From contig OY987230.1 in assembly GCA_963920705.1 (NCBI GenBank), positions 20,733,320 through 20,797,319 on the forward strand: a stretch of DNA of 64,000 bases. The letters run 5' to 3'. The stretch's first letter is position 1; each line of letters opens with the position of its first letter. Of the stretch, positions 6,801 to 52,336 are shown piece after piece. The notes beneath the pieces were generated by a model, which made no database searches, was not told the DNA's origin, and saw nothing but the letters and a program-made list of their open reading frames with translations. A program made the position numbers and the translations under genes. The DNA comes from Odiellus spinosus. Taxonomy: Eukaryota > Arthropoda > Arachnida > Opiliones > Phalangiidae.

Positions 6801-9800
6801 CTGTAAAAGGACCAAATTCCAGGCAGAATTTTTTTCGTATGGGATCGAGGTTCAGATACAGGTAAGATACAAAGTTTATTTTTATTCCTTTCGAATTTCG
6901 ACAAATTTTTTGTTGCTTAATATTTAATTTTCTCTCAGCCTCACCCATATTTCCTTTTCATTAGGATTACTTTTCAGTTTCTCATAGACCAAAGTTTCCC
7001 CCTTTTTTTATTGAAGTACCACTTTGAATTTTAACGAGGCACTTGTCTGACCTTAAATCGGGTAATTAACGATTAAATGTGTCTAGTTCCGAGTTAATTT
7101 TATATATCCAATGGGTTTCCTCTCTATTTGACCCTTATCTTGAGGTTTGAGAAAGAAAAAAACACTCTAACAACTTAAAGAAACTAGTTATAGTGGGGGA
7201 AATGAAAGGCCAGGCACTTAAGAATTAAGAATCAAGTTCTCTTATCGTAAAGGAATGAAAAACTTGTTAAATTGGAAGGAAATGTAATTTGACTCATTAT
7301 TTTAGATGTTTTTAATATAAAAATATCCGCTAAGGGTCAATGAAATAGGTTTTAAAGGGATAATAAAGCCAGACGAATTATTTTATATTGATTTTTTTTC
7401 ATCATTATAATAATTTTAATTCTCTAGTCCAAAAAGATTGCAAATCATTTATTAAGGTATAGAATGGTGTTGGGCCAAACTGATACTGATATTTGGGGGG
7501 GGATATATGGCGGACTTTTCCAATGGCAGCGCGTGTTGACGTCATATCTTAAATAAACCAATGGCCAAAATTTCCATTGAGTTTTATTTAAAAAAATAGC
7601 TGACAGTTTAAGTGTAAATTTAATATTAAGATAATATCAGTATCCAATTGGTTAAATTGCAATGCCAATTTATTTGTAGCGGTCGCACGGAATTTCAAAC
7701 GACGCAGCACAAGGCTCGGAGGACGGTTCAGTTCGAGAGACGACCGAGTCAACGTTACTCGCGTCGGACTACGCACGAACGTCAGCAACAAAATCGAGAA
7801 AACAGAGAACGAAATCGAAACAACCATCAGGAAACGTCCTCTTCGGGGACCGGAACCACTTCGTCCATCGCAAACAAGACTTCGAATGAGACATCGATCA
7901 TTTCAGTGACGGGAGTCAATAACTCGACTCCCGTCACTACATCATCAAGCCATAATTCGCCAAAATCGAGCACCATGACCAATGTAGCCGTAACTCTGAG
8001 CATTCCAGAAACTAATAACAACAATAATAATAATAACAACAACCCGGCTGAGATGGCTTCGTTGATATCTTTACCAGAAAGTGCTGGAACCGTAATAACT
8101 CTCAGTGGACCAACTCCACCCAAAACCCCTGTTATTACGTCTAACGGGACCAATGGATCTGCCGAAGAAAGACTCGACAATCTAATTAAATCCTTAACCA
8201 AGGAGAAATCCAATAACATTTCTATGGAAGCCAAAAACGAATATTCGGCTTCCCCCGTTTCAAGAAGAACCGAAGAAACTTTAGAATGTTCCGCGTCTAA
8301 CGGCGCTGGTGAGGCCGAAGCTATCGCAGCAAAATTGAAAGGGTTAGATTCCCCTGGTCCAATTCATACCAAAACTGCCAAGGAAATCGCTATAGCCAAC
8401 CTTCAAAATAATCAGATGCTACCCAGCAGCGGTGGAGCGAGACCTTTACCTTTAGATCAGAGAAAATGCAACGTTTTAAAAGCCAAATTAGAAGAAGAAC
8501 TTAAAAAGAGTTGAGTCTATTTATACTTTCAAATTATAGTAACGAGCCACTTTAAAACTTCTCTATTGTTAGGCACTGTATAATTTTTATTCTATTGTTT
8601 AATTTTATTTTTCTTTAAAAGGTGAAAAGTCTCCCATTATAACAGAAGATTTGGTACATTATCCTGAAGATCCGGTCTCTGAGAAAGTCAAGGTCACTGT
8701 TATTAACGGGTAATTATTGTTTACAAATTACAACCTTAAAAAAATTTTAATTTTTGAATTGGTTAATTTTTTTATAGGATTGGATTTGATAAAGAGAGTG
8801 TTAACAATGAAAAGGATTATAACAAATGGTAAATTAACAAGCAAATTAACTATTTTCCCCAAAATGGCAGTTCAGTCAGTTTAGTTTCAATTTCAAGTCC
8901 TTGTCTCTGGTTCTACCAAGGTTTAGCTATTTTTTAAGTTCTCTGGTTTTACCAATGCTAGTAGATGGAGCCAATTTGGGGAAATTTTCTTTAATTTATA
9001 TTGTGTTTGTCTTTTATTTAAAGTTATTTTCTAATTAGCGGTACTTGCAGTAAAATCGTTCGCAAATCTTCCCTAACTGACGAGGAGTCTCAGAGTCCTT
9101 CGCCAACATCTAACAACGGTTCTCCATTCTTTTCAGTGGTAAGTATATTGTTTTAAAAAAAGTCTTTTTACTGTAGTTTGCCATAATTCGCACGCATTTT
9201 AAATTACATTTTTTTGAAGTTGTATTTTTGAAATGTAATAGTTTTGCCGCTTGACGTAGTAGTAATTTTAGTAACATTGTTAACATTTATAGGTCCCCTC
9301 TAAGACTAAACCCCCTGAATTAACAGAGAGCGCTAGTAGAGATGACGAGGAGTCAGATAGTGAAGATACTGCTTTTTTAATACCCTCGGCTAGTTCAGCT
9401 AATAATAATAATAACAATAGTACTTTTAACAACATAACTCCCACTATCATAGCTGTTGGCTCGGGGCAATCCAATTCTCCTTCCATTCGCGATAAATCCA
9501 TCGCATCTGAGACTGTTACGATTGATAAGTCGGAAATTCCTAGTTATAATGCCAATTCTTTAACTAGAAAAAAAGCTGCCAAAGAAAATCTTAATAATTC
9601 GGGAATAGCTCGACCAAAAATACCTGTACCGGTATCTCAGTCCCAAATTCGGGGTCCAGGAACTTCTTTAGTTATCAGTCCCTCTACTCCGAGTAAAATA
9701 CCAAGTGTAGTGGGTACCAAATCTAAAATACCTAGCGTAGGCTCGCAATCTTTCATTAAAATTCCTAGCATAGGTACCCAATCTTCCATTAAAATTCCCG

Positions 9801-10894
9801 TTATGGTTAGCCAATCCACTTATGTCAAACCACCATCGACCAGTAAAAGTGCCACTCCTACGCCAGTTGTTTCTAAAATTCCCACCGTTCTTAAATCTCC
9901 CGAATCATCCTCTAACTCAGCCTCTCGAGTTTTGTCGGGTAATAGTCTTGAGGAAGGGAATGGTGGAGCGTTGGTGGGAAAAACTCCTTCAGCTACTGGG
10001 ACTTCGGAATCATCGGAACCATGGGTTGTTACTGTAAGTGGTGATAGGGTTTTTCTTCGTCTGGGGGCTATTTTACCCTCCGGTTACTTAATTAATGTCA
10101 TTTTAATGTCATTTGTGCATATTATTCTCAACATTGTTCTAGTTTTGCATGGTTTTCTTTGCACGTTTTTTTCATTATAAAGCTGTAAAAACTGTCATAT
10201 TTTAACCAAATTTTTGTGTAAAATTGAATAACTAACTATAAAAAGTTAGTAGACAAGCAACCAGACTCATTTTGGCCCTTGTCAAATTGAACTCGCGCGA
10301 CAAACACGTGAATTTAGTTTTCTCAAGCATATGTTAAGTCATTTTATTTATTTTTTTATTTTGTTCAATTCTTGAAAAGGAATTTCATGTGTTTGGTGCG
10401 AGTTCGATTTCACCAGGCCCAAAAGGAGTCAGGTTGTGTGTCTACTGAAATATATTGTCTTAATTTACCCCATAATTGTGGCAGTTTGCTTTTATTCCCA
10501 AGGCTTAGACCCTAATATACTTCCAAGCCTTAGCAATCTGTGTGAGTAAGTAGCATTGTTATTTATGCTCATTCTTGCTGCCATCATGGGATGAAAATTA
10601 AATTAGGGAAAAAGGTTTTACATTGTATTCTTCAAGTTCTTAACTTTTGTTTTTTATTTATTTCCTATCAAATTAAAATAGGAGACTTCGTTTGCGGGTG
10701 CTAATCCTATCACTCGCTCAGTATCGTCAGCGAGTGCTAGAGCCATTTCAGTTCATTCCTTAAAACGTACGCCATCTGGAATCACCCCACCTATTATTGG
10801 TGTTTCACCGAGTGCAGTGCCAACTTGGCAAGGGGAAAATTTGGCGAGACGCGAAAGTGACTTGAGACGAACAGTTATGACTACTGAACTCTAA
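3872..10894 (+). CDS. EPB41L5: EPB41L5/Yurt FERM-domain protein (5' end missing)
   Basis: Band 4.1-like 5/Yurt/Lulu family: a cortical FERM scaffold that restrains apical membrane and regulates actomyosin at junctions. Fourteen exons: 3872-3976, 4746-4788, 5635-5713, 5811-5908, 6054-6174, 6299-6386, 6467-6625, 6692-6861, 7680-8509, 8622-8709, 8778-8828, 9039-9138, 9293-10033, 10682-10894. They give 961 residues in consistent phase. FERM lobes are clear: [49 protein letters not shown] and [19 protein letters not shown]. The FERM-adjacent region ([13 protein letters not shown]) follows. The rest is a Ser/Thr/Asn-rich tail with three SKIP motifs. The C-terminus MTTEL matches the vertebrate ending TTEL, a class I PDZ ligand. 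The protein start lies upstream, probably outside the window. The exon ending at 8509 could instead read on to a TGA at 8512-8514. Confidence 0.93.
4196..4339. mobile_element. Foldback element with about 45-bp arms
   Basis: The left arm (CTCTAACGGCAAACAGTG ... AGTAGTCTTAACTAA) and the right arm (TTAGTTAAGACTACTT ... CACTGTTTGCCGTTTGAGG) are inverted copies around a short loop. It lies in an EPB41L5 intron. A partial relative with AACGGCAAACAGTGCG is at 37094-37115. Confidence 0.7.
5039..5060. repeat. (TG)n microsatellite
   Basis: An uninterrupted GT/TG run of about 20 bp in an EPB41L5 intron, directly before a TTAA-type MITE. Confidence 0.85.
5075..5469. mobile_element. TTAA-type MITE, about 400 bp
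   Basis: The ends read GGCAGGGTGAAGTG on the left and CTCTTCACCCTCCCTTTAA on the right. Internal inverted blocks (AAAAGGAGAACCTCCGACTAATC and GATTAGTTGGAGGTTCTC) form a long hairpin. No ORF of transposase type is present. The element sits in the intron 4789-5634. Confidence 0.75.
6862..7679. other. EPB41L5 intron, about 820 bp
   Basis: This separates the last FERM exon from the tail exon. I see no clear element or RNA gene in it. Confidence 0.6.
10034..10681. other. EPB41L5 last intron
   Basis: The donor is ACT|GTAAGT and the acceptor AAAATAG|GAG. It contains the MITE at 10247-10446 and nothing else recognised. Confidence 0.7.
10247..10446. mobile_element. 200-bp MITE with about 66-bp inverted arms
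   Basis: The left arm AGTAGACAAGCAACCAGACTC with GAACTCGCGCGACAAACACG pairs with the right arm (CGTGT/CATGTGTTTGGTGCGAGTTC ... GGAGTCAGGTTGTGTGTCTACT). No other copy was noticed in the window. Confidence 0.75.
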
Positions 10895-20365: not shown

Positions 20366-25332
<4,967 letters not shown>

Positions 25333-28300
25333 ATGCATTATTGCCCCGGTAATCAAACATTTACTGAAATATGGGAGGACAATGGTGTTTCGAAATGTTT
25401 TATGGAAACAGTGTCATCCGTGATTATCTTCTCATTCATTGCCGTATGTGGCAGTATCGAACACATTATTTATAGAAGGTATTCTACGAATGTTGATAGG
25501 CAGTTGGTGAAAAAATCTTGGTTATATACTTTACAAATCACCCTTTGCGCATTTCTGTCCATCCTCGCGATTTCTCGATTCGTTCTACAACTCACTGTGA
25601 TCAATGATGGAACAATCTCGGGCTACTTAATTCTTAGTTTCATCCTCCCGCTTTTATATTGGCCATTTTCTGTTAGCGTAATTTTACTCGAGAGATTTAA
25701 AGCCCTTCCTAGCGTACCGACATCGGGTCACGGCCTGATATTATTAGTCTTTTGGACTCTAGCCTTCATTAACGAGAACTTGTCATTTTTAAATTTGAAT
25801 AAGAAGTCCTGGTGGTTCTCCATATCAAAGTACGAATTTGAGTCTTTTATATTAATCACACTCATTCGTCTAACAAATATGACTGTTATTCCAGTCAATC
25901 TGATGAAATTGAACTTGCATTGTTCATTGTACGTTACGTATGCACCTTTTTGGTATTTTTCCTGGGTTTAAAAGCGCCGGGTCTTCCTACCTATCGAGAA
26001 TATCTCGCTCATTCGAGTGGAATTCAAGTTGAAACTCAGGTTTCTAACAACTTTTTAGCATTATTTAAATATTGTCTCTTCTGACATAACAAATTACGAA
26101 TATATTTAATATTTAGCCCCTGATTGAAAATACTACCAACCAAGGGTCAACGTTTGCTGATTTTATTCACAAAATTAAACTACTCGCGCCATTTATTTGG
26201 CCTAAGAAAAATTTACTGCTTCAATTCCAAGTACTTATATGCTTGGTTTTGCTCGTAGGAGGAAGGGTTATCACGGTTTATATTCCTCTTATAAGCAAGG
26301 AAATTGGTAAGAACACTATACTATTATCACGACGCGGGCAATATCAGACTCTTGGTTAACTATTTTATTATTAATTACTTAGTCAATAGCCTGACTGACG
26401 CGACTGGAAAAAAATTAACTTTCCGATGGGATTATATTCTTTTATACGTTGGCTTTTGGTTTTTACAAGGACAAGGTAGAAGAAAATATGACTATTGATA
26501 GATCTAAATTTTTAAATGATTTTAAATAAATTAAACTTAGGCGGAAATAGTTTCATGGGTAATTTGCGATCCTTTTTATGGATCAAAGTTCAACAATACA
26601 CCGTTAAAGAAACTGAAGTTAAAGTTTATTCGCATTTACATTAGTAGGTTTTAGTTTTTCAATGACAAATTACATTTGGCTTCATCATAAAGTTCGAGAT
26701 TTTAATTGATAATTTTCAGCTTATCTCTAAGATGGCACATTTCTCGAAAAACGGGAGAAGTGCTTCGAATCATGAATAGGGGAACTAATAGCGTTACTAG
26801 TTTGTTAAAGTATGTTTCAATTATTAATTTATAAAAATTAAAGTGACGTGACTGCTTGTGATTTGTGAACTAACTTCATTTTTATCATTTTGGCTGAAAT
26901 TGAACTCAGGATTTTCTACTAGGGGATATCTTTTCTAGAAGAGAAAAATCGGAAAAACAGTTTAAAACACTTAAAACGAAGTAAAAAAACTTATAAAACA
27001 TTGCAACACTATAATACAGAATATACTTTCGAGAGCTGTAATGGACTTATGTTACTAGCTCTACCAAAAAAAAAAATAACACTGAAAATAAAACAGGGCT
27101 CCCAGAGTACCTATAATTCCCAGGTGATCCTATAAGAGCCTTTAATTCGTATATTTCTCCTATAAATATATATTTTTCTTATCTTAAATTGCGCTGGGAA
27201 AGTTAAAAAAATCCTGTGTATGTTAATTTCGTTTCTAAAGGCAATTTGAAAAGTTTTTGGACTTTCCTTTGGTCCATGGAGGCAATTTGAAAGGTTTTTC
27301 GACCTTTCATTCTCTGGGCCTCTACGACAGGGCTCTCAGAGGTCCTATAATACCTATAATTCTAAGGTGGTCCTATAAAAACCACTAATTCATAAATTTA
27401 TCCTATTTTTTTGTTGTGTTGGTTAAATTGCACTGAGAAAGTTTAAAAAATGATATGTTAATTTCGTTTCATGATAGCTCAGTTAAAAGATACGTTAAAT
27501 ATTAGTTTTGAAGTTTCCAATAAAAAAATTTCGGAGTGGCTGGGCCTTCGCCACCCCAATTTCGAAATTGGAACACGCTGAATTGTCACTTGCCTCCCCC
27601 TTGCAAATATTTCGGCTAGTGCCTATGGTTGAAAATACCTAATCTTTTCAAATTATTAGGAAAAATTTTTTCGTTCGTTGATATAATTTATAATATGGTA
27701 AAAAGTTCCACAATAAAGTTAAAACATGTGATATTTCCAAAAAAAATTATTAAACTTCAAAGGCTGGGTTTTTTTCGTCACTATTTGGTTACTATTTTTA
27801 AAGCTGTTAGTCACTTAAATCACTAAATTTTGCAGTGTAAGTGAGTATCAGGCCTGCGCTGGGAGCCCTGTAAAGATTGAAACACCATAACCAGTTTAGA
27901 ACATTTTAACACACTGACTCTAAAACACTGAAATTAAATATTGGATCACTATTTAAAGCACTCAATATATTGAAACAATATAAAAAGAGACTGAAAAATA
28001 GACTGAAAGAATAACCTTTTTGTTTCAAAACTTGGTGTCACTGTCACTTTAATATCTTTGATATATCACTCAAGAAATTAAGACGAAATTAATAACGATT
28101 CGACTTGTGAAATATATTTTTAGCTATCTACTCTTCAGCATTTTTCCGACAATCGCCGATATTTTAATCGCAATAATTTTTTTTGTAACATCATTTAACG
28201 CCTGGTTTGGTTTGATCGTTTTCGTGGCGATGGGTTTGTATTTGGCCGTCACGATAATCGTGACGGAGTGGCGAACGAAATTTCGTCGCGAAATGAATAA

Positions 28301-31300
28301 GAGCGATAATGCTATGGAAGCCAAAGCGGTCGACGCTTTACTAAATTTTGAAACTGTAAGGAATCAAAATATATCTTGGGCCTTTTTAGACAGAGAGAGA
28401 AAGAGAATTGACCGATTTTTGGTCTTGATTTACAATTTAGGTGAAATACTACAACGCTGAACGATACGAGATTGAAGCTTACCAAAAATTAGTCGATTGC
28501 TACCAGGTGAAAAACGCTTTAAATTGGAGCTTCTGGTAGTTTTGGGAGTACTGAGAGATTAGTGGATTGAATTCACACGTATTTTAAAATAGATTTTTGT
28601 CATAAGTAGATTAAATTAGCCAATTTCGAACTAAATCTGTTGGAATCGCGAATTTCCAGTTAGGCAGAAACGCAATCTTGTATCATTTAAACTCTTCTCA
28701 TAGTATACATCCACACTAAACAGAAACGAATTTCAAAAAATGTGGGCTCGTTCATATATTTGAATAATTTCTCTCCCCTTTGTTTTTGTCTTAAATCTCT
28801 TGTTGGTTAAATCTCAAGGGTGTTATAGTTTTTTCTTTTACCACAAGAGGCGATTTTTTACGACCCTCACGAAGAGATTCACGCTTCTAAGAAATTCCAC
28901 ATTTGAGTCGACTACCTAGTACTTACACGTTTTAATTTACTTATGATATCGTTTATACGAAAAATTCAAATATCAAGGGATAGTGCCACGCACGATCTGG
29001 TCGCAATTTTTATTGGGTCGAGAGGTCGGATCAAAAAATATTTCATTAAGCAGAAAAATTCGGTATTTTGGCTTGGTATTCCGAACAATTTTTAAAAAAT
29101 AATTGTAAAAATAGACCCCCCTCCAAATATTTGACGGGTAATCTTTTATAGTTTGACCTTTTGGGTGTCTTAAGCTCGTTTTTAGTTGAAACAGCAGTAA
29201 TATATATCGAGGTAGCGTTTTCCTTCAGCTAGTTGTGGCTTGACCTTGGGTTTCAATTCCGGACATGTTGTTCCAACTTTAAATAGATCGGTTTATAGTG
29301 GTTCCCTTCCTCTAATATCTCCTTTTGATGGTACTATCCCTTTAACGAAGCGAATTTTGTCATAAAAGTTTAATATTCTTGACTGTATTCCTGAAATTAC
29401 CCCAGGCAATTTGAAACTTTCCAAATATTTTGCGAGTACATATTCGTTATAATTTTAACTTCGATATTCGAAGGTTACCGAATGGAAAGCCCAGGCTTCT
29501 TTGAATTTATTAAACACATTGCAAAGTTTGGTCATAACATTGGCCGTTTTGGCGGGAACCTTACTTTGCGCGGATCTGGTGGTCAATCACGAAAATCTGA
29601 CCGTCGGAGATTACGTTCTCTTCACGACCTATTTGTTTCAACTTTATACCCCCTTGAATTTCTTCGGAACCTATTACAGGTCAGCCCTAGACTATTCTGA
29701 CCGTTGGAAAAGTATTTTTTTAAAACGGGGTTCATACAAACAAGAAATGGTAAAATTTTAAATCGGTGCTTTCCTTCACTTAAAGATAATTTTACTCACG
29801 AAACTAGACTTATTTAACTTACAACCTTTACCAGAAGCCGATGAAACCCTCCTTTGAAGTCTATTACTCCCGGGTCTTGTCTACCCCTCTCTGTATGGGT
29901 TATTCTCAAAAGGCGCGATTCGTACGCCTCCTAACGGTAGATGTTTTCGGAGCGGGAGCTCGTCGAGCGAATATCTCTAGCAGCCTTGGAGTTTGTCCAA
30001 AAAACGTCGTCGTTTGTATAGAGAGAGAATTTCCAATTTTCCGTAGACAGGGGGGATTAAGTAGGACCCCTTCTAACTCGTAAAATTGTGAATTTTACCC
30101 ATACAGAGAGGAGCGCTATATGGAACATTGGAGTAGTAGACTTCAAAGGAGGGTTTCATCGGCTTCTGCCTTTACTAAACATCGAAAGAAACATAATCTT
30201 TCTCAAAATGCTAAGCCTAAATAAATTCGAGTGTAATTTTAAACCGCGCTTTTGCAATAAAACTGCGCTTCTAATTTTGAATATAGGCTTTGAATATTAT
30301 AAAACAGCTAAAATATAATTCCTTGGCTTTCGAAAAAATTGTGACAGCATCAATATAAATGAAAGCGTTAATATAAATTGCGACACAGAATTTAAAAATA
30401 GTTTTTTTTGATGATTAATACCAGTACTGTATGAACCCCTTTTTATTTTATCACTTACTATTTTGATTAACCGTTAATTATTAATAATTAGAATGATTCA
30501 AACCGCATTTATCGACATGGAAAACATGTTTGATTTATTGAAAGTTTTACCCGAGATTCAAGACGACTCTAACGCTCAACAACTTCGAGTTTTAGGAGCT
30601 AGTTTGTCTTTTGAAAAAGTATCTTTCAGCTACAATTCCGAGTACGAAGATCATTTTTTATTTTAAAAAAGAATCAAAACGGAAGATTTAGATCTTAAAT
30701 ATCTTTTAAATTTTTTCCCACGTTAATTAGCCGCCCAGTTTTGAAAAATATTTCATTCGAAGTTCCTTCCGGTAAAACGGTGGCTCTGGTTGGTCCATCC
30801 GGTGCCGGCAAGAGTACCATTATTCGCTTGATATTCAGGCTTTACGATACCACTTCCGGTAGAATTTTTTTCGATAATCAGGATATTAAGTTGGTAGGTC
30901 TTTAAATTGAAAAGAAAAGGTGAAGAGGAAATTGCAGTTATTTTTATTGGGTCCAAAACTGTATCAGAGTTCGAATAAACACAGAAAACGGAAATATCAA
31001 GGAAATACTACCAGCAAATGTCCAGTTAAATGTACCGGTATATTCTGATTCGAGACACTCTAGTGAAATCGAATTAGTGAAATGAAAAAATTCGAGTTGG
31101 GAGGGAAGACATAGGCAAGCGCGGCCCGCCTAAATTCCGTCCCTCTCTCCCGACTCAAAATATCGTGGAAGAGTCCAAATCACTCGAGCCAGACAGGGAT
31201 GACGACTTTTTTGTCTATTTTTAAGTGATGGACGTTTGCTGATAGTATTAAGCTACGGGGCGTTGTTTACTTTTATGGAAAAAGTGATAGACTTTTGGTA

Positions 31301-46098: not shown

Positions 46099-46277
46099 AA
46101 CAGGGGTGTTGAAAAGTGAAGCTTTTATTTAAAGATTTTAATACTCTTAACACTTGGCTTTTTATTTCATTTTATTATTCCTCTTGGTGGCTTGGTTAAG
46201 TTGTTTCACATTGGTATTGTACATTAACTAGTTGTAACTTGTTGGTAATGGGTTGCTGTTTTAGCAAAAGCGACATA
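46099..46277. promoter_or_regulatory. Compact upstream region of SRBD1 (possibly bidirectional)
   Basis: Only 179 bp separate the SRBD1 ATG from the ATG of the small minus-strand ORF. An in-frame upstream ATG for SRBD1 is at 46248. Confidence 0.4.
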
Positions 46278-49200
46278 ATGGAGGTTGATAATAAAGGGGT
46301 CCAAAATAAAGGGCGCAAAAGGACTTTAAAGAAAGGACCCATTGATGAAAACTTTAAGCCTCCTAAAAAGGCCAAGAAAAAGGTGATAGTTTGCTTGACA
46401 GTGTGAAAGGTCAAACCTGATTAGAATTGAATCCTGAATACAATTTACAAATAACAGGTTGTGGTAAAGATATATTCATCCGATGATGATGATGATGTAC
46501 AATTTATGCCTGACAATCAGAAAAAAGGCAGTTTTGATAGTTTCGCTAGTAGTTCAACGGCATCAGCATGCTCTGGAAATGATAATGAGGTTGGTAGCGT
46601 GTTTGCAAAACCCGCAAAGATTTTATCATAAAGGCTAATCAAAATTCAGATGGAAGCTATTCTGGAGGAACTGGCCAGATCAAGATCCTGGTCTCCAGCT
46701 GATGTAATTTGCGATCAAATCAACATTGAAAGAAGAATAGCGCAGAATATTCTGCAGTTATTTGATCAAGAATGCACTATCCCTTTTATAGCGAGATACA
46801 GGAAAGAAATGACGGGTGGGCTAGATGCTGAGAAACTTCTCGAAATTCAAGAAGCTTATTCTAACGTTAAGTACGATATTCTTTAATATTTAAATATCAT
46901 TCTTGAAGCTCGAATTATAATATTTCAAACCTTCCTTCTTAGGGTCGTTCAAAAAAAGGTTGAAACTGTGGCCAGAACTTTACACAAGGAAAATAAATTA
47001 GACAGAAGTTTAGTTAATGCTTTGTGTAATGCCACAACAATTAACGAAGTTGATGATTTGGTAAGGGTTAAATTAAATTTATTTCTAGCAAACAATTTTT
47101 AGCCATAATGTTAAATTTTTTAATCTAAGTACGCTCCATTTAAACCTGGAAGTAAAAAATCGTTGGCACAAAAAGCAAGGCAGTTGGGATTGGAAGAATC
47201 GGCGTTAAAAATTATTTTCAATCAAGCCGGACCAATGGAATTTAATCCTCAAAATTATGTTAATAAGCAAATTAAAGGTAATTATTCTACTAACTATTGA
47301 TTTTGATTCCTAACAAATATTTAAATATATCTTTTCTTTAGATTTGGACTCTCCAGATAAAGTTCTCTTAGGTTGGCAACGAATTATGGCGGATGTTGTC
47401 TCGAAAGACTCGAATATCCTTAGTTTTATCAAAACATTGTAATTAAATTAATCACGATAGCTTTTTTTAGAATTATCATTTAATATAAATATTTTTAAAA
47501 AGTTACACACATCGAAGTATCGAAATTACGGCGACCAAAAGTAATGCTGCTCAAAAAGAAGATGCCAAAGCAGAAACTGAAGGATCTTCAACAAACAACT
47601 TTAAATTTGAAAACTACTTCAACTTTAATAATTCTATTGTCAATATAAATTCACATCAAGTAAGTGGACTTTGTCAAAATTCTCAGAAACATTTAAGTAG
47701 GGGTGTGTGAGCTCTGATTTTTAAGTTTCAAGCCCTTGAAAGTTTTCTTATCGAGCTTTGGGTTTCTTACTGAGCTTTTAGTTATACCGGTTTCGAGCCT
47801 TAAACGACCCTCAAAATTACTTTTTTGATTAAAAGTGTTTTCGCATCATTTGGGATTCTATAAGAGATTTAAATCCTTCGGAGATTGTAAATAAAGACGA
47901 GGATGCAAAGCGAGATTATCAATATTCAAGCTCAATAACCACGACTGACAAGCTTTTGAAATGCCTCTTACTGAGCATTAGGCTCGAAACTCAAAACATT
48001 TCGAGCATTCACACCTCTACTTTAAATTTAGATTTGTTTTGTTAATTTAATTTCATCACTATAGGTTTTAGCGCTGAATCGAGGCGAAAAAAACAAAATT
48101 TTATCCGTGAAAGTTGTTGTTCCTAATTTTATTCGTGACGCAATTTTAAAACATTGTTCTCAAACATTCCATCACAACTATTCAGACTCAGTCATGAAGA
48201 AACTCTTTGAAGATACTTTCGAAGATGCATATCAAAGACTTATGGAACCGCTAATCTGCCGACACATTAGGTAATATAATGGTAAAAGTATGGGGGTTAT
48301 AATCTTAAATTATGGTTGCAAATAGTTATGATAGGGGGCGCCACAGTCATTTAGTTGATTACGAGCCTATAGATAGATCAGTTACTACCAGGGTAGATTG
48401 CTCACTTGCGAATTTGGTGTTCAATTACTCTTATTATATGATTGAGTTGCTTGATAATGAGTTGTACATACTTTATCTTTACTTGGTCTTCAATTACTCC
48501 AAATATATGAACGAGTTACTCTATTAAAACGAGTATTTGCTCTCTAAACAAGTTGTGCTTTACCATTACTCGGTCTTGAATTACATACTTGTAATATTTG
48601 AGTTACTCGATTAAATCGGGTACTCACTCTGATAGTTTGAGATACGAATAATTAAATTTAGACCAATTCAATTATAGATCTGATTTGACAAAAAATGCGG
48701 AGAAAGAGTCAGTTCGAATATTTTGCTCCAATTTAAAGCAACTGTTACTGACTCCGCCAGTACGTGGGAATACTGTTTTGGGAATAGATCCTGGATTTAG
48801 TCATGGCTGTAAATTAGCTGTGGTTTCATCCAAAGGTGAAGTTTTAAGTACAGAAGTACTTTATTTGCACGGAAACAAAGCTGCGAGATATTCCAACCAA
48901 GCTCATTCGCTTAAACAATGTCTCCTTAATTTTGGGTGAGATTTCAACTTTTTTAACTTCAAAAGAACAAAATTTACTTATTGCATTCGAGTTATCAACT
49001 TATCATCCTTATTAATCTTGGAAAAATATTCCAATATCTAAGCTTCTTTAATTTTGGTATCAATTTAACTGACAGTGTCGAAACAATCGCTTTGGGAAAT
49101 GGAACTGCTTGTAGAGAAACTGAAAGCTTCTTATCGTCATTGATCAAGGATGATTTTTTCAAACCTTTGAAAGTTCATTATTGGTGATTAGATAAACTAT

Positions 49201-52200
49201 TAATAAATTTAAATTAAACAGTTTTTAAATTTCTATTTTAATACATGTACAAATTTTTAGTATCGTGGATGAAAGCGGTGTTTCAATCTACAGCGTTAGC
49301 AAAGAAGCTGAAGCTGAACTTCCTAATATGGATCCGAATCTAAGAAGCGCTGGTAAAGACTTTTATATTTTATATTTGAATCAATATCTTAATGTTTTTT
49401 TTTTTAGTTGGTCTGGCTCGTAGACTTCAAGATCCATTACTAGAATATGTCAAAATTGAACCTAAACATTTAGGAGTAGGACAATATCAGGTGATTAAAA
49501 ATTTAAAACTTATAGCCCAGTCTCTAGTTAGATTAATTACTCATGGTAATATAGATTAATTACTCATGGTAATATAGATTAAATACTCATGATAATAGAT
49601 TGATTAATCACTCATAATTGAATAGTTCAATTAATTACTCATGATAATTGAACAGTTTTATTAAATATTTGTGAGTAGTTCAATTGATCATGAAAATTGA
49701 ATAGTTGAATTTATTACTCGTAATAATAATCGTACATGTAGTTCAATTAATTGCTCATAGGCTGATTGAATAGTTTGATTAATCACTCATTGACTGATTG
49801 AAAAGTTTGATTAATCACTCATTGGCTGATTGAATAGTTTGATTAATCACTCTTAGGCTGGTTAAATAGTTTGATTAATCATTATATAATTTTCCTTGAA
49901 ATTGGATAATGAATATTGAATGCTGATTTGTTACTAGAATTTAAAAAAAATTTATCCAAACCCACCAGTAATTATCTTTTATTTAGCACGATATTCCCAA
50001 ACCTATGTTGGAATCGGCTTTAGACGAAGTTGTGATTCAATGCGTTAGTTTTGTGGGTGTGGATTTAAACGTAGTCTCTGCAGTCGTTCTACGGTAATTT
50101 GTCTTCAGAATTGTTTAAAAATATGAACGCGATAGAAATTGATCTTAATAATTTAACAATTGTCAAATTATCTTGGTTAAATAATAGGAGAGTATCAGGC
50201 TTAACTGCATCTAGGGCAAAAAGTATTGTTCAATGGAGAGAAGCCAATGGTTTCTTCAAAAATCGTCAACAATTATTAAAAGTTAAAGGAATTGGACCCA
50301 AAACATTCGAACAATGCGCCGGATTTGTTAAAATCATCCCGCAAACTACTCAAGATGTTTTTGAGTAAGATTTTATACTCGTTTCAATGGTTTTCGTTTA
50401 CAATATCTTACTCTTTCCTCGCAGAGCTAAAATTGCTGCTAACAAGAAGAAAAAAGCTAAAGTTGACGATGAAGATTCGTTTAATCCTTTGGATATGACT
50501 GTTATCCATCCAGAATCTTACGCAACTACCAAAACGTAAGTTTAATATTAGGCTTGTTTGAGTACTAAGGCTTAGTATCGCTTTTTCCTCCTCATTTTGA
50601 TTACGTAGTAGCGAGTAATTGAAGTGGGTTAAGCCTTAGCTGTCTCGTATTAAATTTAGACCCATTGAGCCCACCTATCTGCCAATTATCAAGGATTATC
50701 AGTTATCGATGCGAGTACTCTATATTGGAAATGAACTAAATTATGTAGGTCATTCAACCGAGTACTTGCTTAGACTTAGCAAGTACTTATTTCCATCGAG
50801 TATTTGCCATAAACTTCTACTATTCAGAAGCTATAGATTTAAAAATTGATGTGATTTTTAAAATAATTTTTATAGATTCGAGTACTCGTTATTGATAACC
50901 AACTACTCAATTCAAGTATATGTACTTGCTTAGCTTTAGCGTGTACTCATTTCAGTTGAGTAACTCAGATTAATTGTTATTAACTTCTATTATTCAGAAG
51001 TAAAAGTTTTCTTAAAAATTCTTGCGATTGTTAATTTAAAATTATCCAAAAAATTCTAATTTAGATTCCTAGAACTTATGGAAATTCCATTGAGTGAGAT
51101 CGGTTCTGACGATACGATCAAGAAAGTCACTAACTACCTGAATAACCATAGTAATTAAGCCAAAATTTTATTAAATAACTTTTAATCATTAAAGTTTATA
51201 GACCAATTTTTAATTAGGTATCGAAAGTTTAGCAGAAATACTAAACATTTCAACCGATACTATGTCGTTAATTGGAGATGCTTTGAAACAATCCGTGACT
51301 TATGATATTAGATCAGGTAAGAATGAACTCGTAATCTTATTCAATTTTAATCCTTAACCTTAGATCACCATTCCTATTGAATTTAGAAATGGGCGAGCCA
51401 TTATTCAAAACAGGAATAATGCTTTTTGAAGAATTGAAAGTTGGACAAAAATTAACTGGACGCGTTCAAAATAATACGACTTTTGGAGCTTTTGTGGATG
51501 TAGGAGTTGGAACCAGCGGTCTCATACACAAAAGTCAAATGAGACATCAAGATTTGTTAGTCGGTGATCGAGTAGAAGTCGAAATTTTGAGCGTAGATTT
51601 TGGGAAAAAACGATTGGGTCTAAAGCTTCTTTCTAAAGGTAATTATCTTATTTCAAATAATAAAATTTTGTTTTGACATTTAAGTTAGTTTAATCAATTT
51701 TATATTTCTTCAGGTCTCGTTAAAGCAACCGATAAAGCTGTGAAAACTGAAATTCCTTCGTACAACTCAAGTAGTACGAACGTGAAAACTGAAATTCCTT
51801 CGTACAACTCAAGTAGTACGAACGTAAAAACTGAAATTCCATCATACAGTGCAAATAGGAACGTGAAAACTGAAATTCCATCGTACAGTACAAATAGGAA
51901 CGTGAAATCTGAAATTCCTTCATACGACTCGAGTAATTGGAACGTGAAAAATGAAAATACGTCCTACAATTCAAATGGTGCTGCTACCGTGAAAAGTGAA
52001 ACAAAACCTCGGGACGTACTAAGCAGAGACTTCAAACCGAACAATTTCAATAAAAACTACAAAGAAATGAGAAATATTAATGACTTTTTCATCGGACAAC
52101 GCTTGGATGGTGTAGTTCGATCCGTGAAAATATATGGTGCCTTCGTTGATATCGGTAGTAAAAGAGACGGACTCATTCACTGTTCCAAAATGAACGGAGT

Positions 52201-52306
52201 CAGACTTGAAGAAGGGAACCAAGTAAGTGTTGAAGTTATCGAAGTAGATATCCCCAGGAGTAGAATTTCACTTAGATTATTACAAAGTTTTCAAGTTTCT
52301 TGGTAA
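46278..52306 (+). CDS. SRBD1: SRBD1, Tex-family S1 RNA-binding protein with two S1 domains
   Basis: Eukaryotic relative of the bacterial transcription accessory protein Tex. Nineteen exons: 46278-46382, 46458-46589, 46650-46870, 46943-47060, 47130-47277, 47342-47438, 47503-47659, 48065-48270, 48678-48935, 49076-49183, 49261-49352, 49408-49490, 49987-50093, 50188-50364, 50425-50535, 51065-51150, 51218-51316, 51387-51638, 51714-52306; 1049 residues (human 995). Order: basic/acidic N-terminus ([16 protein letters not shown]); Tex N-terminal helices ([20 protein letters not shown]); RuvC/YqgF-like fold ([37 protein letters not shown]); helix-hairpin-helix ([15 protein letters not shown]); S1 domain 1 (about 781-853); repeat linker (about 861-945); S1 domain 2 (about 973-1044). 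Human SRBD1 has one S1 and no such linker. Confidence 0.96.
48312..48640. repeat. Degenerate GAGTTACTC/AATTACTC repeat in SRBD1 intron 8
   Basis: Blocks such as TTCAATTACTC, GAGTTACTC and ATGATTGAGTTGCTTG recur irregularly. The ORF across it is a by-product. Confidence 0.5.
49500..49885. repeat. Intronic minisatellite, about 38-45 bp units
   Basis: SRBD1 intron 12 is filled with repeats of GATTAATCACTCATTGGCTG, ATTGAATAGTTTGATTAATC and related ATTACTCATGGTAATATAG units. Both exon ends are intact. Confidence 0.85.
51737..51994 (+). repeat. Coding tandem repeat: seven psi-K-x-E units in SRBD1
   Basis: Units of 13-15 codons: [14 protein letters not shown] twice, [55 protein letters not shown], then VKSETKP. 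Each begins with Val-Lys-x-Glu, the SUMO acceptor consensus. The first two units are almost identical at the nucleotide level (42-bp period), so the array is still evolving by duplication. Confidence 0.95.
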
Positions 52307-52330: not shown

Positions 52331-52336
52331 AATAAA
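52331..52336 (+). promoter_or_regulatory. Poly(A) signal of SRBD1
   Basis: AATAAA 24 nt after the SRBD1 stop codon, implying a very short 3' UTR. Confidence 0.6.

Follow-up and report, generated by a model that had tools for sequence, protein, structure and literature searches.

The name SRBD1 is taken here to denote the animal protein of Tex type, and the human protein presumably has a single S1 domain, at its end. According to the available text of one report, human SRBD1 is an essential and little-studied chromosome-segregation factor whose depletion changes few transcripts and whose AlphaFold model reportedly looks like Tex and Spt6 (PMC11830093); no word beginning with SUMO occurs in the main text of this paper. 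In the accessible part of another publication the human SRBD1 peptide KKIKTETYP is used in vitro as a consensus SUMO substrate (PMC10497417). Most studied SUMO targets contain [IVL]KxE, as stated in the available portion of a review (PMC3395311), and the synergy control motif of transcription factors is described, again in text available in part, as a SUMO motif with flanking Pro or Gly (PMC3554661), its action being on multi-site promoters. In bacterial Tex the S1 residues given for RNA binding are F668, F671, H683 and R718 (PMC6832287, available text).

The window (the whole 64,000-nucleotide stretch of DNA analysed) holds a gene whose product is like human SRBD1 in its Tex-like build and in having a consensus I/V-K-T-E site followed by Pro (PMC11830093 and PMC10497417, in their available parts), and unlike it in having seven sites between two S1 domains and none in residues 1-90. 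The reading considered probable, with reservations, is that of an SRBD1, probably from an arthropod, with a duplicated S1 domain and a minisatellite-grown linker of putative SUMO acceptors. The features are as follows.

46248..51316, + strand: SRBD1 exons 1-17 (GT-AG model, one open frame, exons hand-placed; Pfam)
51387..51638, + strand: exon 18, 252 nt, phase 1-1 (symmetric), with the first S1 domain (residues 792-862)
51639..51713, + strand: last intron, 75 nt, GT-AG
51714..52306, + strand: exon 19, terminal, with the repeat linker and the second S1 domain, ending in the stop TAA
51740..52030, + strand: seven V-K-x-E units (K873, 887, 901, 914, 927, 941 and 956)
52076..52291, + strand: second S1 domain (residues 984-1055; limits from a home-made profile; Pfam, AlphaFold2, Foldseek)
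52331..52336, + strand: AATAAA, candidate poly(A) signal

The exons were placed by hand, following splice sites, the reading frame and the sequence to be expected of the family, and the model so obtained has 19 exons at 46248-52306 on the + strand, with every intron GT-AG and 1059 residues in a single open frame. Its start codon is uncertain: translation may begin at 46248 (MGCC...) or at the Met of codon 11. Pfam identifies, in order, Tex_N, the Tex central region, Tex_YqgF, HHH_3, HHH_9 and S1, all six above their cut-offs, with the Tex-family domains preceding the two S1 stretches. Through the end of its first S1 the protein matches Pseudomonas aeruginosa Tex in the PDB (PA5201; 3bzc, 2oce) with an E-value of 5e-100; a Tex-like core is also common to it and SPT6, but there the match is far weaker (best E 8e-18). 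Seven Tex proteins from a plasmid collection, three of them in a form that lacks the ends, align to it at 34-38% identity. The 19-exon model and the Pfam Tex domains thus agree with the initial annotation, which had named an SRBD1/Tex-family protein, and sequence comparison supports assignment to the SRBD1 type of the Tex family. A retro-copy or pseudogene is ruled out, introns and frame being intact. The N-terminal tail (residues 1-90) is charged, of low complexity and without psi-K-x-E. The model begins MGCCFSKSD (46248-46300), which we take to resemble an N-myristoylation/palmitoylation start, and the intron between exons 12 and 13 contains tandem repeats, with units of about 23, 30 and 32 bases, at 49529-49881. 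A separate S1 exon elsewhere in the genome looks, by our reading, like that of SPT6.

The span first given for the two-S1 region, 51377..52306, has the right end, but 51377 is 10 bases before exon 18, in the intron. Exon 19 (51714-52306) is in frame and is entered in phase 1, its junctions with exon 18 are good splice sites by eye (AAAG/gtaatt and tttcttcag/G), and the chance of a 197-codon open frame at its base composition is about 4e-7. AATAAA occurs three times: at 52331, 25 nt past the stop, as expected of a terminal exon; at 51659, in the last intron; and at 52049, within the coding part of exon 19. Read-through of the last intron would lead to a stop about a dozen residues past the first S1.

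That a second S1 follows the repeats, as had been noted at the outset, holds on several counts. The Pfam S1 profile (PF00575; cut-off 22) gives 51.4 bits to the first S1 and 44.3 bits to the second, the two being 40.3% identical (29/72). AlphaFold2 predicts for the exon 19 product five strands with a pLDDT of about 95 across the second S1, from an alignment of 18 rows, two from the window and 16 of bacterial Tex S1, and the top three Foldseek matches of the second S1 are all Tex (2oce, 3bzk and 3bzc; 38-40% identity), with the caveat that the alignment used for the folding itself included those 16 Tex rows. By phmmer whole-sequence E-value the multi-S1 ribosomal proteins S1 outrank Tex for both domains, and Rrp5 does so for the second only. 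Ribosomal S1 outranks Tex by whole sequence because the scores of its multiple S1 domains are summed; for the best single stretch among the matches listed, the second S1 has 28.9 bits with ribosomal S1 versus 43.4 with Tex (one passing stretch). Given these summed scores, the term Tex-type for the second S1 leans on Foldseek and gene context. The equivalents of the four Tex RNA-binding residues are F, F, H and R in the first S1 and Y, F, H and R in the second, with one conservative change, as placed by spacing in alignment A2 (3, 12 and 28 residues, 28 being 35 minus the 7 residues by which the loop of the window S1 domains is shorter) and not by residue-by-residue structural alignment. The second S1 is read here as a functional copy of the first, predicted to bind nucleic acid, and perhaps arose via duplication of the symmetric exon.

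Between the two S1 domains lies the array that the initial annotation had described as seven tandem Val-Lys-x-Glu units in the last exon, and all seven do open with V-K-[T/S/N]-E. The units start at 51740, 51782, 51824, 51863, 51902, 51944 and 51989, with spacings of 42, 42, 39, 39, 42 and 45 bases, so that their lengths vary by multiples of three only. Tandem Repeats Finder reports 51740-51974 with a period of 42, 5.8 copies and 82% matches; this period, with the in-frame unit lengths, accords with the growth by a 42-bp coding minisatellite that had been suggested. Units 1 and 2 share the same 42 bases of DNA, and part of the array is therefore recent, while units 6 and 7 are degenerate everywhere but at V-K-x-E (unit 7 begins VKSETKPRD). 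In a search of the whole genome (443 Mb, 286 contigs, very common words skipped) the linker DNA has a single match, itself, and so gives no sign of being a dispersed satellite. Over the first 110 residues of the exon 19 product the AlphaFold2 pLDDT is 55 or lower in every block of ten; as the linker had almost no aligned rows, this is weak evidence of disorder, and on the model the linker of about 110 residues is probably disordered. In the course of events envisaged, an S1 domain would have been duplicated within SRBD1, and in-frame tandem duplication would have multiplied a unit of 13-15 residues, V-K-x-E-(I-P-S-Y)-spacer, between the two S1 domains.

The linker, taken as 113 residues, contains seven psi-K-x-[E/D] motifs (psi being V, I, L, M or F) against a shuffled mean of 0.17, with none of 20000 shuffles reaching seven; the other 862 residues contain three, where 3.0 are expected. 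Such an excess shows only that a motif-bearing unit is repeated, and for this reason the units were compared with each other. Among 14 hand-aligned columns of the seven units V, K and E alone are invariant (1 in 364 if columns are exchangeable); without unit 7, columns 7 and 8 (S and Y) are invariant also. The following pN and pS values are pairwise and non-independent, and come from few sites. For the V, K and E columns pN is 0.000 and pS 0.171, and since neither K nor E has a synonymous change all of that pS rests on one Val codon change; for the x column pN is 0.37. In six units the IPSY core has a pN of 0.074 versus a pS of 0.498. When the fewest possible changes are counted over the first eight codons, none of ten nonsynonymous changes hits V, K or E (P 0.0065), and without the degenerate unit 7 the count is none of four (P 0.13, not significant). 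Constraint on V, K and E is thus suggestive at the level of sequence, resting on the most degenerate unit and covering IPSY too. A plain psi-K-x-E motif does not require IPSY, and in young copies common descent would suffice to explain a shared V-K-x-E, which counts against the SUMO reading.

Bearing on the same reading, Pro comes shortly after Glu in six of the seven units, giving the form [I/V]KxEx(0-3)P, and the human peptide TFGQSALKKIKTETYPQGQPV (IKTE, then Pro) fits this form as well. Synergy control motifs are alike in the Pro that follows the SUMO motif, and unlike in that the window has a tandem repeat in a chromatin protein and not sites in a transcription factor. The human IKTE site we take to be in the N-terminal tail, a position not homologous to the window linker, and we know of no role assigned to it. 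That the human SRBD1 peptide is an in vitro substrate makes multiplied SUMO acceptors a sensible reading of a psi-K-x-E motif that recurs at seven sites in a predicted disordered segment with almost no aligned relatives. Exons of a SUMO-like gene that ends in QQQTGG are present in the genome. Fourteen of the 19 family matches have the same score and lie mostly in tandem arrays; these fourteen we take to be polyubiquitin.

The array could instead be a neutral coding minisatellite, a flexible spacer grown by slippage in which the V-K-x-E of a founder unit was carried along and is idle as an array. This is judged rather unlikely, and it has in its favor the identity of units 1 and 2, from which part of the array is recent, the unit lengths in multiples of three, a requirement for any spacer that is coding, and the lack of significance of the six-unit test of constraint. 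Against it, V, K and E are kept in units 6 and 7 though much else has changed there, and the seven core columns in six units have a pS of 0.390 exceeding a pN of 0.041, whereas five spacer columns in three units have no such gap (0.250 versus 0.216, on few sites). A different function is conceivable: [S/T]-x-I-P, the motif through which plus-end proteins attach to EB1, occurs in units 1-5 (TEIP four times, SEIP once), a recurrence absent from the initial annotation, and five such motifs compare with a shuffled mean of 0.08, none of 20000 shuffles reaching five. An array binding EB1 would link this mitotic chromosome protein with the ends of microtubules, in keeping with the pS excess of the IPSY core and with the action of human SRBD1 in chromosome segregation (PMC11830093, available text). 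Yet units 6 and 7 keep V-K-x-E and lose I-P, and the spacers are Asn/Ser-rich and by eye not basic, with Glu as x, while positive charge after SxIP favors binding to the negatively charged EB1 surface, according to the part available of PMC12695022. EB1 binding is accordingly ranked below SUMO, and of the alternatives weighed here it is the most improbable.

Hardly less improbable is a functional protein with one S1, owing to retention of the last intron or to early poly(A) addition, with exon 19 rarely expressed. The AATAAA at 51659 and 52049 and the stop soon reached on intron read-through would suit such a product, but AATAAA arises easily by chance in an intron of 84% A+T (63/75 bases), and an unused exon is not expected to keep good splice sites, a long open frame, a well-formed S1 and an AATAAA 25 nt past the distal stop, all of which exon 19 has.

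On the preferred reading, of multiplied SUMO acceptors, each V-K-x-E would most likely be an acceptor, several SUMO moieties could sit on one chromatin-bound SRBD1 alongside its two nucleic-acid-binding domains, and these moieties may recruit proteins with SUMO-interacting motifs. In place of the expression poly-SUMO platform, used in the initial annotation, multi-site SUMO acceptor array is the better term, as the data bear on seven tandem consensus sites and not on chains. A more tentative proposal, which we consider possible but doubtful, is that the SUMO acceptor of SRBD1 moved from the N-terminal tail to the C-terminal linker and was multiplied there, with array length acting as a length-tunable SUMO rheostat. 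The move and multiplication are proposed, from one species, because the human IKTE presumably lies in the N-terminal tail and the window tail (residues 1-90) is without the motif; the identity of units 1 and 2 points to an array length that has recently been changing. If the rheostat were real, array length would set the number of SUMO moieties per SRBD1 on chromatin. With its seven sites in tandem, such a natural orthologue would allow the role of SUMO on SRBD1 to be tested directly, and the array would exemplify how a minisatellite can copy a modification site.

Bacterial Tex, like the window protein through its first S1 and supplying the top Foldseek matches of the second, is unlike it in S1 number. 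The 87 prokaryotic Tex ORFs compared, largely of Bacillota, comprise the seven plasmid-collection records and the best 80 of at least 591 confirmed loci in prokaryote genomes; 86 have one S1 and one has none, and neither two S1 domains nor a linker between S1 domains is found in any of them. The scan used a home-built profile whose seed included the S1 domains of the window itself; L089, the member without S1, is a short ORF, and L050 ends at a contig end. The claim of a new Tex-family architecture therefore stands against these 87, a comparison set that is prokaryotic only. The two S1 stretches depart from the single C-terminal S1 of Tex and SRBD1, and we call the window protein a variant by an added S1 and not a canonical member in that feature. 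The two-S1 form was not found in the literature on two-S1 Tex, on SRBD1 with SUMO or on insect SRBD1, as covered in partial texts with subscription papers mostly outside the scope, and searches of viral contigs for relatives found none. If common among insects, the two-S1 SRBD1 could prove ordinary for the group. The form is also relevant to the ways in which Tex-type proteins acquire surface for binding nucleic acid.

Another S1 domain (34.6 bits) of the genome lies in an ANKZF1/Vms1-like gene (L013:5587-9150, on C13:2790001-2800000) with ankyrin repeats by Pfam, in the same open frame as, and just upstream of, a zinc finger whose exon we take to be of ANKZF1/Vms1 type; a search of the literature on ANKZF1 with "S1 domain" found nothing. 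It is 41% identical (30/73) to the second SRBD1 S1. Both SRBD1 S1 domains and the ANKZF1-like one have a short loop of 19 residues, versus 26 or 27 in those Tex S1 domains that fit the pattern (64 of 86), the other 22 being outside it and uncounted (of eight printed, seven are equally long by eye and one is cut off). The shared short loop suggests, on sequence, a kinship of the three. A tree of 29 of the 86 Tex S1 domains (every third) and seven S1 of the genome has long branches and unsettled bootstrap values; the three short-loop domains group weakly (70/34), and the first S1 joins the ANKZF1-type S1 (95/82), a pairing flagged as a meeting of long branches, whereas pairwise scores favor the second S1 with the ANKZF1-type one. 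No order of duplication is therefore drawn.

Elsewhere in the window two Ser/Thr/Asn-rich ORFs without a Pfam family lie at 7630-10180, the second with three SKIP and one SEIP motif. A stretch of this second ORF, at 9524-9559, resembles the SRBD1 unit in protein; homology is not claimed for it, its DNA identity to five units being 19-20/33. Open frames at 25267-28460 match a mitochondrial-type ABC transporter (MTABC_N, ABC_membrane). In the genome the TTAGG repeat, the telomere type searched for, has 7014 forward and 2583 reverse matches, overlaps counted, with none for the reversed control, which points to an arthropod. Among the places listed the repeat occurs at many separate points on contig C1 (e.g. 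35430304-35430558), a spread that suggests interstitial arrays.
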